A stretch of 64,000 nucleotides of DNA from Betaproteobacteria bacterium (GTDB lineage Bacteria > Pseudomonadota > Gammaproteobacteria > Burkholderiales > Burkholderiaceae_A): positions 1 through 64,000 of the forward strand of contig VGHK01000005.1 of the NCBI GenBank assembly GCA_016868305.1, written 5' to 3'. The notes under the pieces were generated by a model. That model made no database searches. It was not told the origin of the DNA and worked only from the letters and a program-made list of their open reading frames with translations. The first letter of the stretch is position 1. Each line of letters begins with the position of its first letter. The position numbers and the translations under genes were made by a program. Shown piece by piece: positions 17,146 to 35,339 of this stretch.

Positions 17146-18357
17146 CTAGGTCTTTTTCAGAAGAACCGGCTCTGCTACCCGCCGTACATGATCCGGCACC
17201 ATGGTCTTCATCTTTGCGGGTAGCTCGCGCGATAGGTGAATTACCGTTTCGGCAGCCTTCATTTCGATTCGGGCACGCGCAAACTCCATGCCCTTGGGGC
17301 CAAACCAGGTCATCAGACGGCCTACAACTGGGCGTAACCAGTTCGGCATGCGCCGAAGCGGAAGACCCCCGGCCGCACGCTGCGTATTCTCAACAAATCC
17401 CCGCACCGCAGCATGACGATTCCCCGAATCGGTGGGCTTTGTCAGCACCAGTTCATCGCCAAGCAGTTCTACCAGTTTCTGGCCTTTGGCATTGCGCACA
17501 ACCAGCCACTGCTGCCCTTCTCCGCCCATATAGCCCACGGTAATGTCGGACAATGCATTGACATAGTCGACACAGGTACGGCAGGTGAGCGGAAAGAAAT
17601 CGGCGGGCAGGTCTGCCAGTGGCAGTTGCAGAAAGGGGATAAGCTTTTTACGCCCGTCCTCAAACCGCAACTCCACCTGGTAATCGGCCCGGAACTCAAG
17701 ATAGCTCACTGTTTGGGGAGTCTCGGTCAGTTTTTCCAGAAACAGATGAAAGTTCTCTGTCGTAGTGTTGTCCGAGCACGGTGTGCCTATCACCCATAGG
17801 TCGGCAAAGCCATATTGCTCCGCAAGGGCGCGCAGTGCATAGACCTGACAAGGAATTCCGATAACAGCAAGCCTTTTAATCCCCTGCGCCAACGCGGGCT
17901 CTATCAGCGACAACAGAGGAGCATAACCCATGCGCATACCCCGACAGGCCGCAATATCACTTGGCTTACGCACGAGTACCGGCTCCGGACGCCAACGGTC
18001 CTCGGCTGCGGGCTTCATGGTAAGCACAGCATCGACAAGATTCTCTTCAAGCAGCCGTTCGGCCATACGGGTGGTAATCCCCGTCCATTGAGCCCCCGCC
18101 AATGGCTGCCGCAGACGGGCACGCCAGATAGCCTGGTGCGGACCAAAGTAGAGCTGGCTGGGGTCTTCTAGGGCGCGCTGCGCACCATGCACCTGCCGCT
18201 CCCAGCGCGGATAGTCTGGCGCAATAAACTGGCACGCGGTTGCGCAGTTTTTAGGAGAAGAAGACCGAGACACCCCGCAGTCAGTACAAAGCCTTCGGTA
18301 CGGCGGCGCAGTCGCCGCCAAAAGTGTTACGACCTTTTTGGATGGGTCTGTAGCCAC
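17146..18357 (-). CDS. bciB: FrhB/BciB-family Fe-S flavoprotein, putative 3,8-divinyl chlorophyllide 8-vinyl reductase (ferredoxin type)
   Basis: LCTDCGV...C..ACQFI, LYFGPHQAIWRARLRQPLAGAQWTGITT, LAVIGIPCQVYALRAL, CRTCVDYVNALSDITVGYMGG, GPKGMEFARARIE: collinear with BciB/HCAR sequences as recalled. Confidence 0.75.
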   Translation of the reverse strand: MATDPSKKVVTLLAATAPPYRRLCTDCGVSRSSSPKNCATACQFIAPDYPRWERQVHGAQRALEDPSQLYFGPHQAIWRARLRQPLAGAQWTGITTRMAERLLEENLVDAVLTMKPAAEDRWRPEPVLVRKPSDIAACRGMRMGYAPLLSLIEPALAQGIKRLAVIGIPCQVYALRALAEQYGFADLWVIGTPCSDNTTTENFHLFLEKLTETPQTVSYLEFRADYQVELRFEDGRKKLIPFLQLPLADLPADFFPLTCRTCVDYVNALSDITVGYMGGEGQQWLVVRNAKGQKLVELLGDELVLTKPTDSGNRHAAVRGFVENTQRAAGGLPLRRMPNWLRPVVGRLMTWFGPKGMEFARARIEMKAAETVIHLSRELPAKMKTMVPDHVRRVAEPVLLKKT

Positions 18358-20113: not shown

Positions 20114-20767
20114 ATGACCCTGCCCTCAGAGGCCGAGATACAGAGAGTCTCGATTGCGAAATACCAGAGGCGTGCCGCAGGCTATGACAAGTCATGCGGG
20201 CCCACCTGGCCCATTCGCACCCGGGCTATCGCTGGTCTGCAGCTGCAGCCCGGGGAGGTGGTCCTCGACGTGGGCTGTGGTACCGGACTGAGCCTGCCAC
20301 TTTTGCAGTCGGCCGTGGGAACATCCGGTAAGGTCTACGGCTTTGACCAAAGCCCCGATATGCTGGCGAAGGCCCTGCACCGGGTGCAGACAGAAGGCTG
20401 GTCGCAGGTAGAGGTCTTTGCTTGCAGCGCCCAGTCTCTCACCCTTCCCCAGAAGGTAGACGCCTTTTTGTTTCACTACACGCATGACATTCTGCGATCC
20501 CCCACAGCCATTTCCCGGTTGCTGGCCTGGGCCAAGCCCGGTGCACGGGTTGCTATTGCAGGCATTCAATATTTTCCTGCATGGATGGCGCCACTCAACC
20601 TCTGGGTCTACTTCAAGAACTATGGCTATAACGGCGCACCAGGCGACCTTCGATCGCCCTGGGACCGCATCGCCCCGTATCTCGATGACTTTGAAAGAAC
20701 CTCTACCCAATGGGGCATGGGCTACATTGCCTTCGGACGGGTAAAGGCAATCCCCTCAGACGCATGA
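20114..20767 (+). CDS. Class I SAM-dependent methyltransferase
   Basis: VVLDVGCGTGLSLPLLQSAVG, VYGFDQSPDML. Confidence 0.85.
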   Translation: MTLPSEAEIQRVSIAKYQRRAAGYDKSCGPTWPIRTRAIAGLQLQPGEVVLDVGCGTGLSLPLLQSAVGTSGKVYGFDQSPDMLAKALHRVQTEGWSQVEVFACSAQSLTLPQKVDAFLFHYTHDILRSPTAISRLLAWAKPGARVAIAGIQYFPAWMAPLNLWVYFKNYGYNGAPGDLRSPWDRIAPYLDDFERTSTQWGMGYIAFGRVKAIPSDA

Positions 20768-22398
20768 ACCAGAAAGGCTGGTTGCCGGGGCTCGCCGCAC
20801 TGGTGATCTTGAATGGCCTGTTGAGCTTCACCGCCTGGTGGCCAACCCCTGCGGTGCTTCCCGATCTTCGCATTGCGCCCGAGTTCGTCCTGCTCTGGCT
20901 GACACTCTTGCTTATTGCGCGACTGCACGGAAGCCTGGCGCGACCCCTACTCTGGACACTCACGTTAATCTACTCCGTATTTGTCTTCGCCCGTTATCTT
21001 GATGTCACCGCGCCCGCGCTCTTTGGCAGATCCGTAAGCCTCTACTGGGACATTCCCCAGATCCCTCGGTTTCTCTGGGTATCCGCCTCCGAGGGGCCAT
21101 GGTGGCTCGGCCCCTTAACGATTGCCAGCATGGGAATCGGCATCAGTATTCTGGTGGGGCTGATTTCCTGGTCGATCCGTATGGCCACCAGCAGCCTTGC
21201 CATCCCGCTCTGCAAAAGGCCCTGGCTCTGGATCGTCACAGGCTTGGCAACCGCTCTGATTTCGGCAAACTATGCGGGCGTTCAGGCAACCTGGCCGTAT
21301 GTCTCTAAGCCGGTCATTCCCACCTACTACCAACAGTTGGAAATCCTATGGGATGCCCAGTCACCGAAGTCTCTTGCGCGCCTATTGCCCGATGAAACCC
21401 CCATTGAATCGGCACTGAGGCATCCGCCTGATGCCGTGCTCGGGCAGCTCAGGCAGCGTGACCTCAGCATTATCTTTTTAGAATCGTTCGGGGCCATGCT
21501 CTACGATGACCCCCAGGCAGCCAAGGACACTGCCGCCGCACGAAACGCCCTACACCAGGCCATTACCGCAAGCGGACGCAGTGTGGTCACAGCCTTTTAC
21601 CGTTCTCCTACGATCGGTGGCGCCTCTGACCTTGCGCATATGTCTGTACTGTCTGGCGTAGACCTAAGCGACCCTCGGCGTCACGATCTGCTGCTCACTA
21701 CGGGCAGGCCCACCCTCATTCAACTCTTACAGACAAAAGGGTATGAGGCCTTCGGTCTTTACCATGCCGTCTCTTGGCCCTGGCCGGAACGCGTTTTCTA
21801 CCGGTTCGACCACTACCTTGATGGGCCGTCTCTGGGCTACCAGGGACCCCCACTCGGATTCTGGTCCATTCCCGACCAATTTGCCATCGCACGGTTTATG
21901 GATCTGCATCCGATTCGGCCGGAAACCCCGCCCCGGTTTCTTCTTTTCCCCACAATCACATCGCACTTTCCCTTCAGCCCCGTGCCCCCCTATCAGCCAG
22001 ACTGGCGGCAGGTTCTCACCGAGAAGCCTTTCGGCGACAGAGATACCGAAATTGCCTTAGCCGAGAAACCCAACTGGCGCAATATGCGCCCCGACTACCT
22101 ACGCATGGTGAACTATGTTTATCAGTGGCTCAGCGGATTTTTTCTTCTGCCAGAGTCACGCGATACGGTCTATCTGCTTATCGGGGATCACCAGCCCACG
22201 GCAAACGTCAGCGGAGAGGGCGTGACATGGGATGTCCCGGTTCATATCATCAGCAGAGACCCCAGCCTGTTGCAGCCACTTCTCGCGGCTGGATTCTCCG
22301 AAGGGCTAAACGCCAGCCGCGCGATACTAGGAGGCCTGCACGAGCTACCCGCCCTTTTGCTTCAGGTCTGGTCAACTCCGGCCCCCGGCAGGCCGTAG
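20764..22398 (+). CDS. Membrane sulfatase/alkaline-phosphatase-fold protein (LtaS/OpgB-like phosphoglycerol transferase superfamily)
   Basis: N-terminal TM helices, IIFLESFGAML, GGASDLAHMSVLSGV, LLIGDHQPTANV (metal-binding DH). ATGA overlap with the methyltransferase stop. Confidence 0.78.
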   Translation: MNQKGWLPGLAALVILNGLLSFTAWWPTPAVLPDLRIAPEFVLLWLTLLLIARLHGSLARPLLWTLTLIYSVFVFARYLDVTAPALFGRSVSLYWDIPQIPRFLWVSASEGPWWLGPLTIASMGIGISILVGLISWSIRMATSSLAIPLCKRPWLWIVTGLATALISANYAGVQATWPYVSKPVIPTYYQQLEILWDAQSPKSLARLLPDETPIESALRHPPDAVLGQLRQRDLSIIFLESFGAMLYDDPQAAKDTAAARNALHQAITASGRSVVTAFYRSPTIGGASDLAHMSVLSGVDLSDPRRHDLLLTTGRPTLIQLLQTKGYEAFGLYHAVSWPWPERVFYRFDHYLDGPSLGYQGPPLGFWSIPDQFAIARFMDLHPIRPETPPRFLLFPTITSHFPFSPVPPYQPDWRQVLTEKPFGDRDTEIALAEKPNWRNMRPDYLRMVNYVYQWLSGFFLLPESRDTVYLLIGDHQPTANVSGEGVTWDVPVHIISRDPSLLQPLLAAGFSEGLNASRAILGGLHELPALLLQVWSTPAPGRP

Positions 22399-24041
22399 AC
22401 CAGGCCTGTCATGACCAACAACACCGCCATCGTGACCGCCTGAGGATTTTCTAGCCCCTCTAGCAAGGCCAATCCGATTCCTGCGAGGCCGGCAGTCACC
22501 GCCATGACGCGCAGCAGCCACGGACGCCAGCACTGGTAGGCCCACACCGCGTCGCTCAGGCGCCATGCAGCGGCAAACACCACTGGGCCAAGCAGTAACG
22601 GCCAGCCAAACGGGCGATAGCGCCCATCCATGATCAGCCAATAGACCTGCCAGAGCACCAGACAGAGCCACAGAAATATCAGCCCCCGAAGCAGATGGTC
22701 CGTCTGATGTAACAGCCTTGGGTCGTCCCCGAAAAGGCCGCCAGTGGTCGCAATGCCCTTATCACGCGCCTTGTCATATCCGGCAATAGCAATGGCGAAA
22801 CTATGACCACCAGCCTGCCGGGGCAGACGAAGGGCGAGACCAAGACAAAGCGCTGTGGAAATAAAAACGCCGGCCATGGCAACGCCCCACTCGGCTGCAG
22901 TGCGACTCCATAGCCATGCCATTTCGGTCTGAACGGCTGCTAATCCAGCGATCAACAGCCCGATGGACAGAGCCCACCGAAGACGCGGCCCTGCCAGTAG
23001 CAATAGGCTCCAGCCGGCCATCAGACCTGTCAGAAAAACCCAGGATTGCGTCTGCGACAACGACTGGGTCCAGTCAACCCGTCGGCTTCCATCAGAGGCA
23101 AAGACGCCCCAGGAACCTCCCATTGCCCCCTCCTGTACCCGCTTCCAAGGCTGATCAAAGGACTCAATCAGGTTGAAATCAATAGGCGTGACATCCTGAC
23201 GCGTCAGTAGGCCATGCACAAAGTAACGCTGCTCCTGCACTCCTGGTAGCGCAGGCCCTCGCGCCCGCCCCCAGGCCGGCCAGCCAGTCTCTCCCACCCA
23301 GACAGGCAGTGGAGAGAAAAGCCTTTGCATCTCGGCATAGCGCTCGTGCACATAGTCGACCGCCCGAGAGACCCCAACCGGATCATCCTCCCAGTAGGGA
23401 AGGATATGCACCGTTACCAGGTCGGTATGCGGCAGTAGATCCTGGGCATACCGCTGCCAAAAAGCCCAGACATCGGCATAGGTAACCGGGATAGCGAGCG
23501 CTGCCCGCAGCTCCGAAAGAAGCTTAGCCAGTTCCCCAACCGGCAGGTCACCGCGCAATAAGACTTCGTTACCCAGAATCACCATCTCAATCACATCGGG
23601 ATACTCTCGAGCCAGAGCTACCGCGCGTGCAATCTCGCGGCGATTGGCCTGCCGATCTGGGCCAATCCAGACACCCATGCGCAGGCGCAGCCCCATAGAC
23701 CGGGCAAGTTCAGGAATCGCCTCCATTCCTTGGTCGAGGCCGTAGGTACGCAGGCAGGGGCTTATGGTCCGGATCTGCTGCAGATCCCGCTGCAACTGCT
23801 CTCGCGAGAAGCGCAGCATCGGGTCGAAGGGTGAATCGGCGGGGTGCCGAAAAGGGGCATACGATACGCATGGCAGAATGGCAGAAGGCAAGGGTGCCAG
23901 CGGCCTCTCCCAGAATCGCTGTCCTGCCCAAAGGCTCAGGCCCAGACAGGCAGCAAAAATAACCGCCAAGGCTGCACGAGGGCTGACGCCTGAGCGCCAT
24001 ATCTTGTCTGCGGTGTCATGCATTCTCGATAAACCTGTCAC
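22362..24041 (-). CDS. GH17-family beta-1,3-glucanase/transglycosylase-like domain with multi-TM C-terminus
   Basis: GH17 motifs ILGNE (acid/base) and VGETGWPAWG (nucleophile); C-terminal hydrophobic helices. Confidence 0.82.
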   Translation of the reverse strand: MTGLSRMHDTADKIWRSGVSPRAALAVIFAACLGLSLWAGQRFWERPLAPLPSAILPCVSYAPFRHPADSPFDPMLRFSREQLQRDLQQIRTISPCLRTYGLDQGMEAIPELARSMGLRLRMGVWIGPDRQANRREIARAVALAREYPDVIEMVILGNEVLLRGDLPVGELAKLLSELRAALAIPVTYADVWAFWQRYAQDLLPHTDLVTVHILPYWEDDPVGVSRAVDYVHERYAEMQRLFSPLPVWVGETGWPAWGRARGPALPGVQEQRYFVHGLLTRQDVTPIDFNLIESFDQPWKRVQEGAMGGSWGVFASDGSRRVDWTQSLSQTQSWVFLTGLMAGWSLLLLAGPRLRWALSIGLLIAGLAAVQTEMAWLWSRTAAEWGVAMAGVFISTALCLGLALRLPRQAGGHSFAIAIAGYDKARDKGIATTGGLFGDDPRLLHQTDHLLRGLIFLWLCLVLWQVYWLIMDGRYRPFGWPLLLGPVVFAAAWRLSDAVWAYQCWRPWLLRVMAVTAGLAGIGLALLEGLENPQAVTMAVLLVMTGLVYGLPGAGVDQT

Positions 24042-24081
24042 TCTTCTTCCGGTTGAACAACGCCATGCAAACGCCTAAGGC

Positions 24082-26880
24082 ATGATCCCACCACAGTCTG
24101 CTCCGCCGGTAGTCGTAAAAAGCCTACGCAGGAATCCTGCGCGCGTCATGATGGGCTTGGCTGGCATGATCCTGGTCTTGGCGGCGCACTTTCTTTTCTG
24201 GAGGCTGGGCAACCCTGAGTCAGCCGCACCCCAGATTCATGGTCCCACGGCAGGCATAGCCTACAACGGCTACGGCCGCTGGAACGGCCCCCAGGCAGCA
24301 GCAACGCCTTCTGCCGAAGAGGTCTCAAACGATATAGCGCTCTTGGCTTCGGTTACCAAACGCATACGTACCTACAGCAGCACGGAGATGCCCAGCCTTC
24401 TGGAGCATGCCAGGTCACATGGCCTATCGGTGAGCCTTGGGGCCTGGCTGGATCAAGACTCCCGGCGTAACCACCAGGAGCTCGCTGCTGCTGTCCTTGC
24501 TGCGCAGGCCCACAGCCATGTAGACCGACTTATTCTGGGAAACGAGACGCAGCTCACCAAAAGGCTGCCTGCCCAAGCGCTTTATCAGATACTCGATGAG
24601 ACCCGGGTGCGGCTGCGCACTCCGGTATCCACGGCCGAACCCTGGCATGTCTGGCTATCGCAGCCAGAGATCGCCCGACACGTCGACTTTATTACGGTAC
24701 ACCTCTTGCCCTACTGGGAGGGAATACCCGCCGAGTCAGCAGTGGACTATGCCCTAGATCGCCTGGCCGAGGTGCAGGCACGATTCCCCCGGATGCCCGT
24801 GGTCATTGGAGAAATAGGCTGGCCGAGCCAAGGTACGGTGCAGGGATATGCAAAGGCCTCTCCGCAGATACAGGCGGCATTTATTCGAGAGTTCGTGCAG
24901 CGGGCCGAGGCACTTGGGCTGGACTACTACCTTATGGAGGCCATTGACCAGCCCTGGAAGCGGTTACAAGAGGGCAAGGCAGGCGGCCACTGGGGCATCT
25001 GGGATGTGTCCCGGTCACCGAAATTTGCATGGACAGGGCTGCTTGCGCCAGACCCGCAGGCAACTATGGTCGCGCTCGGGGCCGCTATTCTTGGCCTGGT
25101 GCTTGCGCTCCCAGTCCTCTTTGGAATTAGGCGGATGCGCCTACAGGCACGGGTTACCCTGTTGGTTGGAACGCAGATGATCGGATACGCCTTTGTCTGG
25201 TTCGCCTGCTGGCCGTTCTCAGACTACCTGAGGCCATCCGAGCTTTTTATGGCCCTGGGGCTCATCGCAACAATCACACTCATCGCAGCGCTGATGCTTG
25301 CCCTGCTTTTCGAGTTTAGTGAAGTATTCTGGCCCGGTAGCCTAAGATCCGATCCGCCGATTCCCCTGAGGCTGCAACCCCACGACGCACCCAAGGTGAG
25401 TCTGCATCTAGTCTGCAGCAACGAGCCGCCTGCCATGGTGATTCGGGCGATCGACCAGTTACTGGCAATAGACTGGCCCGCACTGGAAGTTGTGGTGGTC
25501 GACAACAACACCCGTGACCCAGGTCTCGTTGCGCCGCTTGCAGACTTTGTTCGTAGCCGCGCAGACCCTCGGCTGCAGTTCTTTAGCCTGCCGCACTGGC
25601 CAGGGTTTAAGGCAGGTGCCTTGAACTTTGCGCTAGAAAAGTCAGACCTTCAGGCCTCCTGGATTGGGGTGGTAGATGCCGACTATCAGGTGCATGCAGA
25701 CTGGATCGCCCAGTTGGCAGGATACTTTCGCCAAGAGAATGTCGGACTAATACAGGCGCCCCAGGCGCATCGTGACCCCCTTAACCAGCCATTCTTACGA
25801 ATGGCCTATTGGGAATATGAGGGGTTTTTTCGCATTGGTATGCATCACCGTAACCAGCGTAACGCTATCATTCAGCACGGCACCATGACCCTGATCCGTG
25901 CCCAGACCCTCCGAAGACTGGGCGGATGGGACGTCCACTGTCTATGCGAGGACTCGGAACTTGGCCTGCGCATCCTGGCCACTGGTGCCCGGGCAGTATA
26001 TGTTGACCAGGTATACGGAACCGGGTTACTTCCCGCAGACTTCATGGCCTACCGCAGGCAGCGGCGTCGTTGGGCCCACGGGGCTATGCAGATTCTCAAG
26101 TCTCATATAGGGTCAGTTATCGGCCGATCACCACTGCGCCTCGGGCAGCGCTATCACTTTCTTGCAGGCTGGCTGCCTTGGATGGGCGATGCCCTGCACC
26201 TCGTCCTCACGCTTGGGGCAATCGGCTGGAGCCTGGGAACAATCATCGCACCGGCGCTTTTTCCCTTGCCGACCCCAATGCTCGTCGTTCCGCTTCTTGG
26301 GCTGATCCTATTTAGATTAGCCAGCGCACTGGCGCTCTATTCCCGTCGGGTTGACTGCGGGTGGAGAGAGAGCCTTGGCGCAAGCTTAGCCGGAATGGCC
26401 CTCTCCCATATCATTGCCCGAGGGATATTGAGCGGTCTTTCCGGACGCGCTGCCCGCTTTGAGATAACCCGCAAGTCCCGGGAACACAGCCAGGCCCTGA
26501 ACCCCGCCGGCACGCACCGACAGGCTGAAAAAAAATCCTTCAAAGACATCGTCTGGAGCCACCTTGTCGCAGCACGCGAAGAACTACTGCTTCTCGCAAT
26601 ACTGGTTTCTGTGCTGTGCCTGTTCTGGGCTCTGCCACAGTCGCCAGTTATTCCCATAGATAACCGGCTTGCCTGGTCTGCCATCTTGGGGCTTCAGGCA
26701 CTGCCCTACCTGGCTGCAGTCGCCTGTTCCATGCTTAGCGCCATCGGGCAAGCCACTCCCCATGACCAAGAGCGAGTTCAGACAACGACTGCGCGTACGG
26801 TGCATTGGGCCAGCCCAGAAGGTTCGAGATCCGGAATGACTGCCGAAGCAGTGACTCGGAATCCTCAGCCACCAGGTTAA
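24082..26880 (+). CDS. ndvB: GH17-GT2 fusion, NdvB-like beta-1,3-glucan synthase/transglycosylase
   Basis: N-terminal GH17 (LILGNE, VVIGEIGWPSQG), then processive GT2 (VVVDNNTRDPG, GVVDADYQVHADW, CEDSELGLRIL, RRQRRRWAHGAMQ) and TM helices. Confidence 0.82.
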   Translation: MIPPQSAPPVVVKSLRRNPARVMMGLAGMILVLAAHFLFWRLGNPESAAPQIHGPTAGIAYNGYGRWNGPQAAATPSAEEVSNDIALLASVTKRIRTYSSTEMPSLLEHARSHGLSVSLGAWLDQDSRRNHQELAAAVLAAQAHSHVDRLILGNETQLTKRLPAQALYQILDETRVRLRTPVSTAEPWHVWLSQPEIARHVDFITVHLLPYWEGIPAESAVDYALDRLAEVQARFPRMPVVIGEIGWPSQGTVQGYAKASPQIQAAFIREFVQRAEALGLDYYLMEAIDQPWKRLQEGKAGGHWGIWDVSRSPKFAWTGLLAPDPQATMVALGAAILGLVLALPVLFGIRRMRLQARVTLLVGTQMIGYAFVWFACWPFSDYLRPSELFMALGLIATITLIAALMLALLFEFSEVFWPGSLRSDPPIPLRLQPHDAPKVSLHLVCSNEPPAMVIRAIDQLLAIDWPALEVVVVDNNTRDPGLVAPLADFVRSRADPRLQFFSLPHWPGFKAGALNFALEKSDLQASWIGVVDADYQVHADWIAQLAGYFRQENVGLIQAPQAHRDPLNQPFLRMAYWEYEGFFRIGMHHRNQRNAIIQHGTMTLIRAQTLRRLGGWDVHCLCEDSELGLRILATGARAVYVDQVYGTGLLPADFMAYRRQRRRWAHGAMQILKSHIGSVIGRSPLRLGQRYHFLAGWLPWMGDALHLVLTLGAIGWSLGTIIAPALFPLPTPMLVVPLLGLILFRLASALALYSRRVDCGWRESLGASLAGMALSHIIARGILSGLSGRAARFEITRKSREHSQALNPAGTHRQAEKKSFKDIVWSHLVAAREELLLLAILVSVLCLFWALPQSPVIPIDNRLAWSAILGLQALPYLAAVACSMLSAIGQATPHDQERVQTTTARTVHWASPEGSRSGMTAEAVTRNPQPPG

Positions 26881-28084
26881 CCACTGCGTACCGATGGCTT
26901 CCCATCCAGGCCAGTTCCCTGTGTACTGAAAAGGGTACGCGCGAAAACTGTGCGAGCTGTGCCCCAGGAAACTCCCGAGACAAAGCCGCTATAGCCCCTT
27001 TTGGCGGACGGGGCGGCAACTCGTCGCGGGCAAAAGCACGCCAGACCAGGCTTGCACCGACCTTCCCAGTAGGTGGCTGTCGAGAAACCGAACTGCCTGT
27101 GCGCCCCAGCGCGATTGCCAAGGCCATAGCATGTGGATTGAGGCCCAAGACCCCGCGATAGAGGTCTCCGAACTGGGAAGACAGCCTCGGGTTAAATTCA
27201 ATGACCGAGATGCGGTCCGAGACCTTATCGTAGAAAAATTCCATATTGAAGAACCCCTGACCGAAACCCACCGCAGCCAGAAAACGCTGGGCTACAGCTA
27301 AGGCCCGTGCGATAACCGTCTGAGGAAGCCTAGAAGGAAATTCCCAGCGCTGAAACGCCTGTGTTCCTGGATAGGACACTGCATCCACCACCCCGAGCAG
27401 ATGGATCCCGGACTGATCCCTATATCCATCCAGGTTGTACTGCGGGTGCCAGACAGGCTCTTCAGCAAGAAACCGGAGAGACGGTCCTGCCTCAGGCAGG
27501 TGTCGCGCAATTGCCTGTTCAAAAGGCGCTAGGAGCCGTCTCATTAGCCAACTATCCGCAGACACATTCGCAAAATAGTCACGCCAGGCCATCGGGCCAT
27601 CGATACCCCGGGCGAGCATCGAAAAGGTCGCCCGCACGGGCTTTAGATAAACGGGAAGCCCGAGAGACTCAGGAGGGCTTTCATTCAGTCGGGCGTCCAC
27701 TGCTGTGAAACGAAGATTCTCTTGCGGACAGACCTGCTGCAATACGCGTCTCGCATACAGCTTGTGCTGACAGGCGAGCACCGCAGCCACGTTCGGGCCG
27801 GCAAGGCCGAGACGCTCGGCAATCATGGCCGCCACAAGGGTGCCGTAGAGTTCATGATGCGACACTACGGCGGCCCAGTTTCTAGCTCGGCCACGCCTAG
27901 CCATCTGGTCAGCATACCGGTCTAGGTCCAGAGTCAAGAGGCGTAACACACCGGAGAGCGAGATCGGATTAAAACCCGCATCGTCAGCAGCTAGGCCCTT
28001 TAGAACCTCGTGGTGGGCAGAGGCATCCCAGTCGTAATTAAATAAAAGACCGACTCGGGTGGGGACTGACCGCGCCATATTCAT
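26735..28084 (-). CDS. ATP-grasp domain protein of unknown substrate
   Basis: ATP-grasp-like C-terminal motif ISVIEFNPRLSSQFGDLYRGVLGLNP; start 1 nt after the EamA gene stop. Confidence 0.72.
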   Translation of the reverse strand: MNMARSVPTRVGLLFNYDWDASAHHEVLKGLAADDAGFNPISLSGVLRLLTLDLDRYADQMARRGRARNWAAVVSHHELYGTLVAAMIAERLGLAGPNVAAVLACQHKLYARRVLQQVCPQENLRFTAVDARLNESPPESLGLPVYLKPVRATFSMLARGIDGPMAWRDYFANVSADSWLMRRLLAPFEQAIARHLPEAGPSLRFLAEEPVWHPQYNLDGYRDQSGIHLLGVVDAVSYPGTQAFQRWEFPSRLPQTVIARALAVAQRFLAAVGFGQGFFNMEFFYDKVSDRISVIEFNPRLSSQFGDLYRGVLGLNPHAMALAIALGRTGSSVSRQPPTGKVGASLVWRAFARDELPPRPPKGAIAALSREFPGAQLAQFSRVPFSVHRELAWMGSHRYAVVNLVAEDSESLLRQSFRISNLLGWPNAPYAQSLSELALGHGEWLARWR

Positions 28085-28085
28085 G

Positions 28086-28967
28086 CTACCTACTGCCTGG
28101 GATGGTCTGACGAGAAACAGTGTTAAAAACCAGAGCGCCAAGGATTAAGCCCGCACCCTGCAATGTCACCACAGTGATTACCTCGCCCCCCCATAACCAG
28201 GCCCATATGGGCCCAAGCACCACCTCAAATAGTGACAGCAGCGCAATCTCCTGGGCAGGCAGGTAACGGCTAAGCCAGACCATTAGGCTACAGGGCACCG
28301 CGAGTTGGAAGACTCCGAGAAAAGCGAGCCATGCAAGGTCAGACTCGGTTGCCCTTAACGGAAAAATTAAGGGGAGCATCAATAGCGCAGAAAAAATACC
28401 GCCGAGCATGACCGCCGGAATCAGGCTCACGCCCCCTCGAAACCGTCGCAAAAGCACCAGATTAGAGGCGGCTGCGATAGGGGTACCCAGTGCAATAACC
28501 ACCCCCAATAAGCCATCGCCACTGAGCCCCTCGCGCAGCATCCACCACAGCCCAATACCAGCCACCAGTATCGAAATTGCCGTGACCCTGGAGATCGGTT
28601 CCCCGAGAATCCAGCGAGCGAGTATCGCTGCAAACAAAGGCGCCAGGCTCACGATCAGTAAGGTATTGGTTACCGAGGTCAGCTGAATGGCCACCATAAA
28701 ACAGGTAAACATCGTGGCCCAGAAAAGCCCCGATAGCAGGCCAGGAAGTCCCATGCTGCGAACCAGGCGAACCAGCCCCACGGGGCCCTTTTGCACTGCC
28801 AAAACGAGAACCAGCGTCAGGCCACAAAAAAAACTTCGCCAGAATGTCACCTCAAAAGAGGCTGCCGACTCAAGCTGCCGCGACACCACGCCTGCAGTAC
28901 TCCATAGGGTGCAGATCAGGATCATCCAAAAAAAGCCCGACACAGAGCCGGGATTATGCATAGGCAT
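28086..28967 (-). CDS. EamA/DMT family transporter
   Basis: Ten hydrophobic helices, EamA repeats. Confidence 0.88.
   Translation of the reverse strand: MPMHNPGSVSGFFWMILICTLWSTAGVVSRQLESAASFEVTFWRSFFCGLTLVLVLAVQKGPVGLVRLVRSMGLPGLLSGLFWATMFTCFMVAIQLTSVTNTLLIVSLAPLFAAILARWILGEPISRVTAISILVAGIGLWWMLREGLSGDGLLGVVIALGTPIAAASNLVLLRRFRGGVSLIPAVMLGGIFSALLMLPLIFPLRATESDLAWLAFLGVFQLAVPCSLMVWLSRYLPAQEIALLSLFEVVLGPIWAWLWGGEVITVVTLQGAGLILGALVFNTVSRQTIPGSR

Positions 28968-29561: not shown

Positions 29562-35339
<5,778 letters not shown>

Follow-up and report, generated by a model that had tools for sequence, protein, structure and literature searches.

A conserved NdvB-type glucan synthase locus of a betaproteobacterium with a linked, putative serine-nucleophile phosphotransferase

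The locus described here, from a Betaproteobacteria bacterium (GCA_016868305.1), is a real and conserved variant of a known glucan-synthase system, and its new part is the company that the synthase gene keeps. The window, that is, the whole stretch of DNA analysed, comprises positions 1-64,000 of the forward strand of contig VGHK01000005.1, with the locus at 20114-28967. The analysis observed which genes are present, that their catalytic motifs are intact, that their linkage is conserved, and that they co-occur across genomes. The preferred reading, with a probability of about 0.63, is that a beta-1,3-glucan is produced by the locus on the outer side of the inner membrane and receives a phospho-headgroup from a sulfatase-fold membrane protein (SULF), with a methyltransferase (MT) and an ATP-grasp protein (ATPG) taking part in the decoration module. 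The six genes, all open at the coordinates given, are:

20114..20767, plus strand: MT, a class I SAM-dependent methyltransferase of 217 aa with no predicted membrane segment
20764..22398, plus strand: SULF, a membrane protein whose PF00884 domain (alkaline-phosphatase/sulfatase fold) follows an N-terminal hydrophobic bundle
22362..24041, minus strand: GH17m, a membrane-anchored GH17 domain followed by about six hydrophobic segments
24082..26880, plus strand: GH17-GT2, a predicted synthase of the NdvB/"Orphan" type with GH17 and GT2 motifs
26735..28084, minus strand: ATPG, an ATP-grasp ligase-like protein of 449 aa, counted from the ATG at 28084
28086..28967, minus strand: a transporter of the EamA family, supported by Pfam and lying 1 nt upstream of ATPG

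The coordinates of these open reading frames bear out the arrangement given in a first-pass annotation of the same DNA: GH17-GT2 and GH17m diverge across a gap of 40 nt, SULF converges with GH17m in a 37-nt overlap, and SULF is coupled to MT through an ATGA at 20764 that overlaps the end of the methyltransferase gene. A longer SULF frame opens at 20710. The 146-nt convergent overlap between GH17-GT2 and ATPG had gone unrecorded. The ATG of ATPG at 28084 lies 1 nt past the EamA stop, and the TTG listed at 28141 is probably not the true start of this gene. Pfam searches support MT, the GT2 domain (E 9e-21), EamA, and the Sulfatase domain (30.3 bits, with a cut-off of 25).

Judged by its sequence, the GH17-GT2 protein is a beta-1,3-glucan synthase of a known kind, the NdvB/"Orphan" type, a family that has already been described (PMC10237404). 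It has an N-terminal periplasmic-type GH17 domain with two catalytic glutamates, in LGNET and GEIGWP, and a C-terminal processive GT2 domain with D, DxD, [TC]ED, and QxxRW motifs (VVDNN, VVDADY, CED, and QRRRW) and flanking transmembrane helices, and these glutamates and GT2 motifs are conserved in all seven aligned loci. GH17m carries its GH17 domain at approximately residues 50-330, with catalytic glutamates in LGNEV and GETGWP, and its catalytic pair and multiple transmembrane segments give it an NdvC-type architecture. Both GH17 proteins keep the pair LGNE and GE[T/I]GWP, as originally annotated. Both domains score below the curated cut-off of Pfam, so their assignment is drawn from these motifs and from PDB searches, in which they matched the solved beta-1,3-glucanosyltransferase 4wtp (E 1.5e-21 and 5.5e-20). 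The same searches matched the GT2 domain to the cellulose synthase BcsA.

Related loci were sought first with GH17m as the query against GTDB genomes, which gave 43 loci, and then in the order and class to which the window belongs. Seven genomes (the window, L012, L013, L055, L058, L065, and L066) carry SULF next to GH17-GT2 or to the accompanying GH17m gene; they are those of the window, of a congener, of two Accumulibacter species, and of three others, and represent at least five lineages. Besides SULF, these loci contain a second GH17 gene (six of seven), MT (four), and ATPG (four). In both Accumulibacter loci (L012 and L013) the glucan genes have SULF and MT as neighbours, and in one of them ATPG comes after MT. 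SULF, MT, and ATPG also occur together in L067 and L115, where the synthase is on another contig; the placing of synthase and SULF on different contigs, as in G289 and G703, counts against the preferred reading; and a 3.3-kb contig, L061, holds the tail of MT, then SULF, with an ATPG fragment at its end. Gene orders vary, from MT-SULF-GH17m-GH17GT2 in L065 to ATPG-GH17GT2-GH17m-SULF in L055 and L066; the loci are thus not repeated sightings of a single inherited block. As the set is kept in further genomes, it is more than a chance grouping. Most GH17 loci, notably those of Rhodospirillales and Magnetospirillum, have no SULF within the stretch examined.

The first-pass annotation had staked its proposal of a glucan-plus-decoration locus on conservation beyond the GH17 pair, and the recurring SULF linkage supplies it. 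The synthase, the second GH17 protein, and a linked membrane phosphotransferase-like protein of that proposal are all found in distant genomes, but EamA falls outside the conserved set. EamA, HtrA, FrhB, and a downstream ferredoxin oxidoreductase were each tested as cluster members and were not conserved in related loci; EamA, with no recurrence there, is probably not part of the system.

The version in the congener (G007) is more divergent from that of the window (SULF 43%, GH17-GT2 39%) than are those of Accumulibacter (51-52%). The set was therefore not simply inherited with the genus, and these identities suggest its horizontal transfer. Across the seven loci, the identities of SULF rise and fall with those of GH17-GT2 (r = 0.95). 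The GH17m gene is present in two of 26 genomes of the family (G000-G025), those of the window and G007, in divergent versions; the pattern points to separate acquisitions.

Several other genes were observed in the vicinity. A FrhB/FdhB-family protein, resembling the F420 hydrogenase beta-subunit, is encoded near the cluster at 17146-18357 of the window, and PEP-CTERM proteins adjoin the glucan cluster in two genomes (L013:4524-5129 and L065:11377-11979). The catalase-peroxidase KatG is encoded within ~5 kb of the cluster at 33150-35306 of the window, and a KatG with 60% identity to it lies directly beside the cluster in Accumulibacter (L012:4221-6416). KatG was rejected as a cluster member, being near the cluster at these two loci and no other.

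Co-occurrence was assessed in one fixed set of 349 genomes of the order, in which SULF was found in 6, GH17-GT2 in 18, ATPG in 37, and OpgG in 49; the tests take genomes as independent of phylogeny. SULF and GH17-GT2 are both present in five genomes, that is, in five of the six with SULF. When the window is left out, GH17-GT2 is present in four of five SULF genomes, compared with 17 of 348 overall (hypergeometric p = 1.9e-5, phylogeny-uncorrected), and those four genomes lie in four different families. ATPG accompanies all five synthase genomes with SULF and none of the 13 without it (Fisher p = 4e-4 excluding the window, likewise phylogeny-uncorrected), a stronger association of the ATP-grasp gene with the locus than had been supposed at first. 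Nine of the 11 SULF-bearing genomes have GH17-GT2 and no OpgG, and the other two have OpgG and no GH17-GT2, so SULF tracks the capacity to make periplasmic glucans, be the backbone machinery of the one type or the other. OpgG (PF04349) is absent from the genome of the window. Over the order sample, GH17-GT2 and OpgG never coincide (0 overlap, p = 0.06), an exclusion that by itself is not significant. In 13 of the 18 genomes with GH17-GT2 there is no SULF, and any decoration by this protein would accordingly not be general. DgkA, which in E. coli recycles the diacylglycerol left by headgroup transfer, did not track SULF as a sign of lipid-headgroup donors and is missing from six of the 11 SULF genomes, including that of the window.

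The neighbourhood might instead be fortuitous or the product of hitch-hiking, with SULF, MT, and ATPG acting on a non-glucan target, for example ATPG together with MT and EgtD-like enzymes in the synthesis of small molecules. Such an origin would suit a GH17 pair that is widespread without SULF, as well as an ATPG that is present in 37 of 349 genomes, most of which lack SULF, and has VTT-domain, EgtD, DUF547, or ArsS genes as neighbours. It is nonetheless hardly probable, given a linkage that recurs in at least five lineages with differing gene orders, the co-occurrence statistics, and the OpgG complementarity among SULF genomes.

Its sequence features make SULF, on the best reading, a phosphotransferase of lipid headgroups that uses serine as the nucleophile. 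Its PF00884 domain, matched by eight of nine SULF members, lies behind an N-terminal transmembrane bundle, as in the OpgB/LtaS transferases. Seven residues (E240, S288, W340, Q372, H401, D475, and H476) are invariant in 17 homologues, distant ones included; E240, H401, D475, and H476 are the E, H, and D-H of the OpgB/LtaS-type metal/substrate site and, with S288, would fit a serine-nucleophile phosphotransferase. The position before S288 varies (A, G, or T; Q, R, or M in distant homologues). The threonine nucleophile of OpgB and LtaS was not found in SULF, S288 being invariant in all 17 homologues. BcsG uses Ser278 to take phosphoethanolamine from a lipid and hand it to cellulose (PMC11379886). 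The spacing from S288 to a downstream glycine, 10 residues, is the same as that after the catalytic Thr302 of LapC (PMC7576196) and after the corresponding threonine of E. coli OpgB.

Motif spacing alone was used in these comparisons, and hhalign of SULF with E. coli OpgB, OpgE, BcsG, and LapC gave no significant score (OpgB, E 0.21). An NCBIfam search yielded no hit for SULF, phmmer and profile searches of the PDB found nothing, LtaS and LapC included, and AlphaFold runs on the full-length protein and on its soluble part (three sequences each) gave a mean pLDDT of 36-37 and no confirmation of the fold. A formylglycine sulfatase was rejected, as the C/S-x-P-x-R motif is absent and S-D-L-A-H stands at the nucleophile. 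The original description of SULF as LtaS/OpgB-like is sound at the level of superfamily and active site, but the nucleophile is Ser and not Thr and the searches found no specific sequence relationship to OpgB; SULF is not demonstrably OpgB or LtaS, and would be a serine-nucleophile relative at superfamily level. A second SULF-like clade (L116-L122), with GGxSWLAH in place of GGxSDLAH, was observed in other families of the class with no GH17 neighbours.

The LapC-like motif spacing, together with the activity of LapC, which has the same fold, in envelope regulation, would also agree with a phosphatase or a LapC/YejM-like regulator or sensor that controls the synthase and is not a glucan transferase. 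That role is very unlikely for a protein whose full catalytic residue set is invariant, and the occurrence of SULF with OpgG where the GH17 synthase is absent is more readily explained if SULF acts on glucan than if its partner is the synthase.

For a SULF that acts as a transferase, the likeliest headgroup by analogy would be phosphoglycerol, which has the closest product precedent, as the P. aeruginosa NdvB product is a glycerol-phosphorylated beta-1,3-glucan (PMC10237404, PMC2997053). A tentative alternative, unlikely though substantial, is the same glucan system with SULF transferring phosphoethanolamine or phosphocholine, in which MT could N-methylate phosphatidylethanolamine as the donor. 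The precedent for phosphocholine is Bradyrhizobium japonicum, whose beta-1,3/1,6 cyclic glucan bears this group (Rolin 1992, as cited in PMC4881576), and in E. coli the glucans receive phosphoethanolamine from OpgE (PMC3818809). The Ser nucleophile is that of the phosphoethanolamine transferase BcsG (PMC11379886), and MT, which is coupled to SULF, has the PE N-methyltransferase 8ys9 among its weak PDB matches. However, this match is at superfamily level, its 31.8 bits lying far under the 65.3 bits of 3dh0, MT is missing from four of the 11 SULF genomes, and SULF has no profile match to OpgE or BcsG.

All matches of MT, those in the PDB included, are to the class I methyltransferase superfamily, and a family-specific search for the PmtA type gave scores at that level only. 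MT lies beside SULF in L012, L013, L061 (as a tail), L065, L067, and L115. The ATPG protein of the window scores just under the ATP-grasp Pfam cut-off and a homologue scores 1.3e-10; its metal ligands in the pattern E..E.N (E284, E298, and N300) are invariant, as expected of an ATP-grasp domain, and it weakly resembles carbamoyl-phosphate synthase and L-amino-acid ligases. The part of MT and ATPG in decoration is a statistical link and not a mechanism.

ATPG homologues also recur, mostly without SULF, beside VTT/DedA-type membrane proteins, EgtD, DUF547, and ArsS (the arsenosugar radical SAM enzyme) or a related methyltransferase (L103, L104, L105, L106, L107, L110, L112, L114, and L066). They are possibly an undescribed ligase family with a pathway of its own.

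In the preferred scheme, in which all activities are inferred, as are the type of linkage, the substituent, and which way the group is transferred, the GT2 domain would polymerise glucose through its own membrane channel, most likely to a beta-1,3-glucan. The periplasmic GH17 domain of the synthase and the separate GH17m would then cut and re-join the chain, resulting in elongation, branching, or cyclisation, a step modelled on the NdvB/NdvC pair of Bradyrhizobium. S288 of SULF would take up the headgroup of a membrane phospholipid as a phospho-serine intermediate and hand the phospho-group on to the glucan, the likeliest substituent being phosphoglycerol from phosphatidylglycerol. MT and ATPG would work in the cytosol as part of the decoration module. 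A more elaborate scheme, considered quite unlikely, has these two proteins build an unusual N-methylated or amino-acylated headgroup on a lipid or other carrier for SULF to move to the beta-1,3-glucan, where it would be a substituent of a kind new to periplasmic glucans, with SULF, MT, and ATPG as a dedicated, horizontally moving module that can be coupled to an NdvB or OpgGH backbone.

Several known systems share parts of this design. LtaS and LapC (YejM) have comparable site residues (E, nucleophile, D-H, and H, with W and R as near the LtaS glycerol-phosphate site), but have Thr where SULF has Ser, and neither was matched in phmmer or profile searches of the PDB. BcsG also decorates a polysaccharide beside a BcsA-type synthase and likewise has a Ser nucleophile and an N-terminal transmembrane bundle, whereas it has no significant sequence match to SULF and its glucan and partner genes differ. 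The osmoregulated periplasmic glucans of E. coli follow the same logic, in which a glucan backbone made by OpgGH receives lipid-derived phospho-groups from membrane enzymes of the sulfatase superfamily (phosphoglycerol from OpgB and phosphoethanolamine from OpgE); however, the backbone machinery is different, the genome of the window lacks OpgG, and neither OpgB nor OpgE gives a significant profile match with SULF. Bradyrhizobium likewise pairs a synthase, NdvB, with a second protein, NdvC, which is also a GH17 membrane protein, and we know of no linkage of SULF, MT, or ATPG genes there. NdvC is needed for beta-1,6 links, which are lost in an ndvC mutant (PMC4881576).

The first-pass annotation knew of no described system with this exact set. 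Its core is in fact known as NdvB/"Orphan", but no description of the SULF-MT-ATPG set was found in the literature searched, which took in only a minority of subscription journals. To our knowledge, no enzyme has yet been assigned to the addition of phosphoglycerol or phosphocholine to NdvB-type beta-1,3-glucans. Pseudomonas NdvB/"Orphan" (PA1163; PMC10237404) shares the GH17-TM-GT2 architecture, motifs, and probable beta-1,3-glucan product of the window's synthase. A second membrane enzyme was proposed to substitute its glucan, for which the 2023 analysis of the synthase family named only distant, unlinked MdoB homologues as candidates and one linked case, in Desulfofustis glycolicus (PMC10237404). 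No linked decorating gene has been reported for Pseudomonas, whereas the linkage seen here, in seven genomes, is to a different protein of the sulfatase fold, together with MT and ATPG. The locus offers as candidates a specific linked enzyme family with a probable nucleophile and two further linked genes, present also in Accumulibacter, a wastewater-treatment organism, and it suggests that the genes for decorating a glucan can move as a module of their own, separately from the synthase that makes the backbone.
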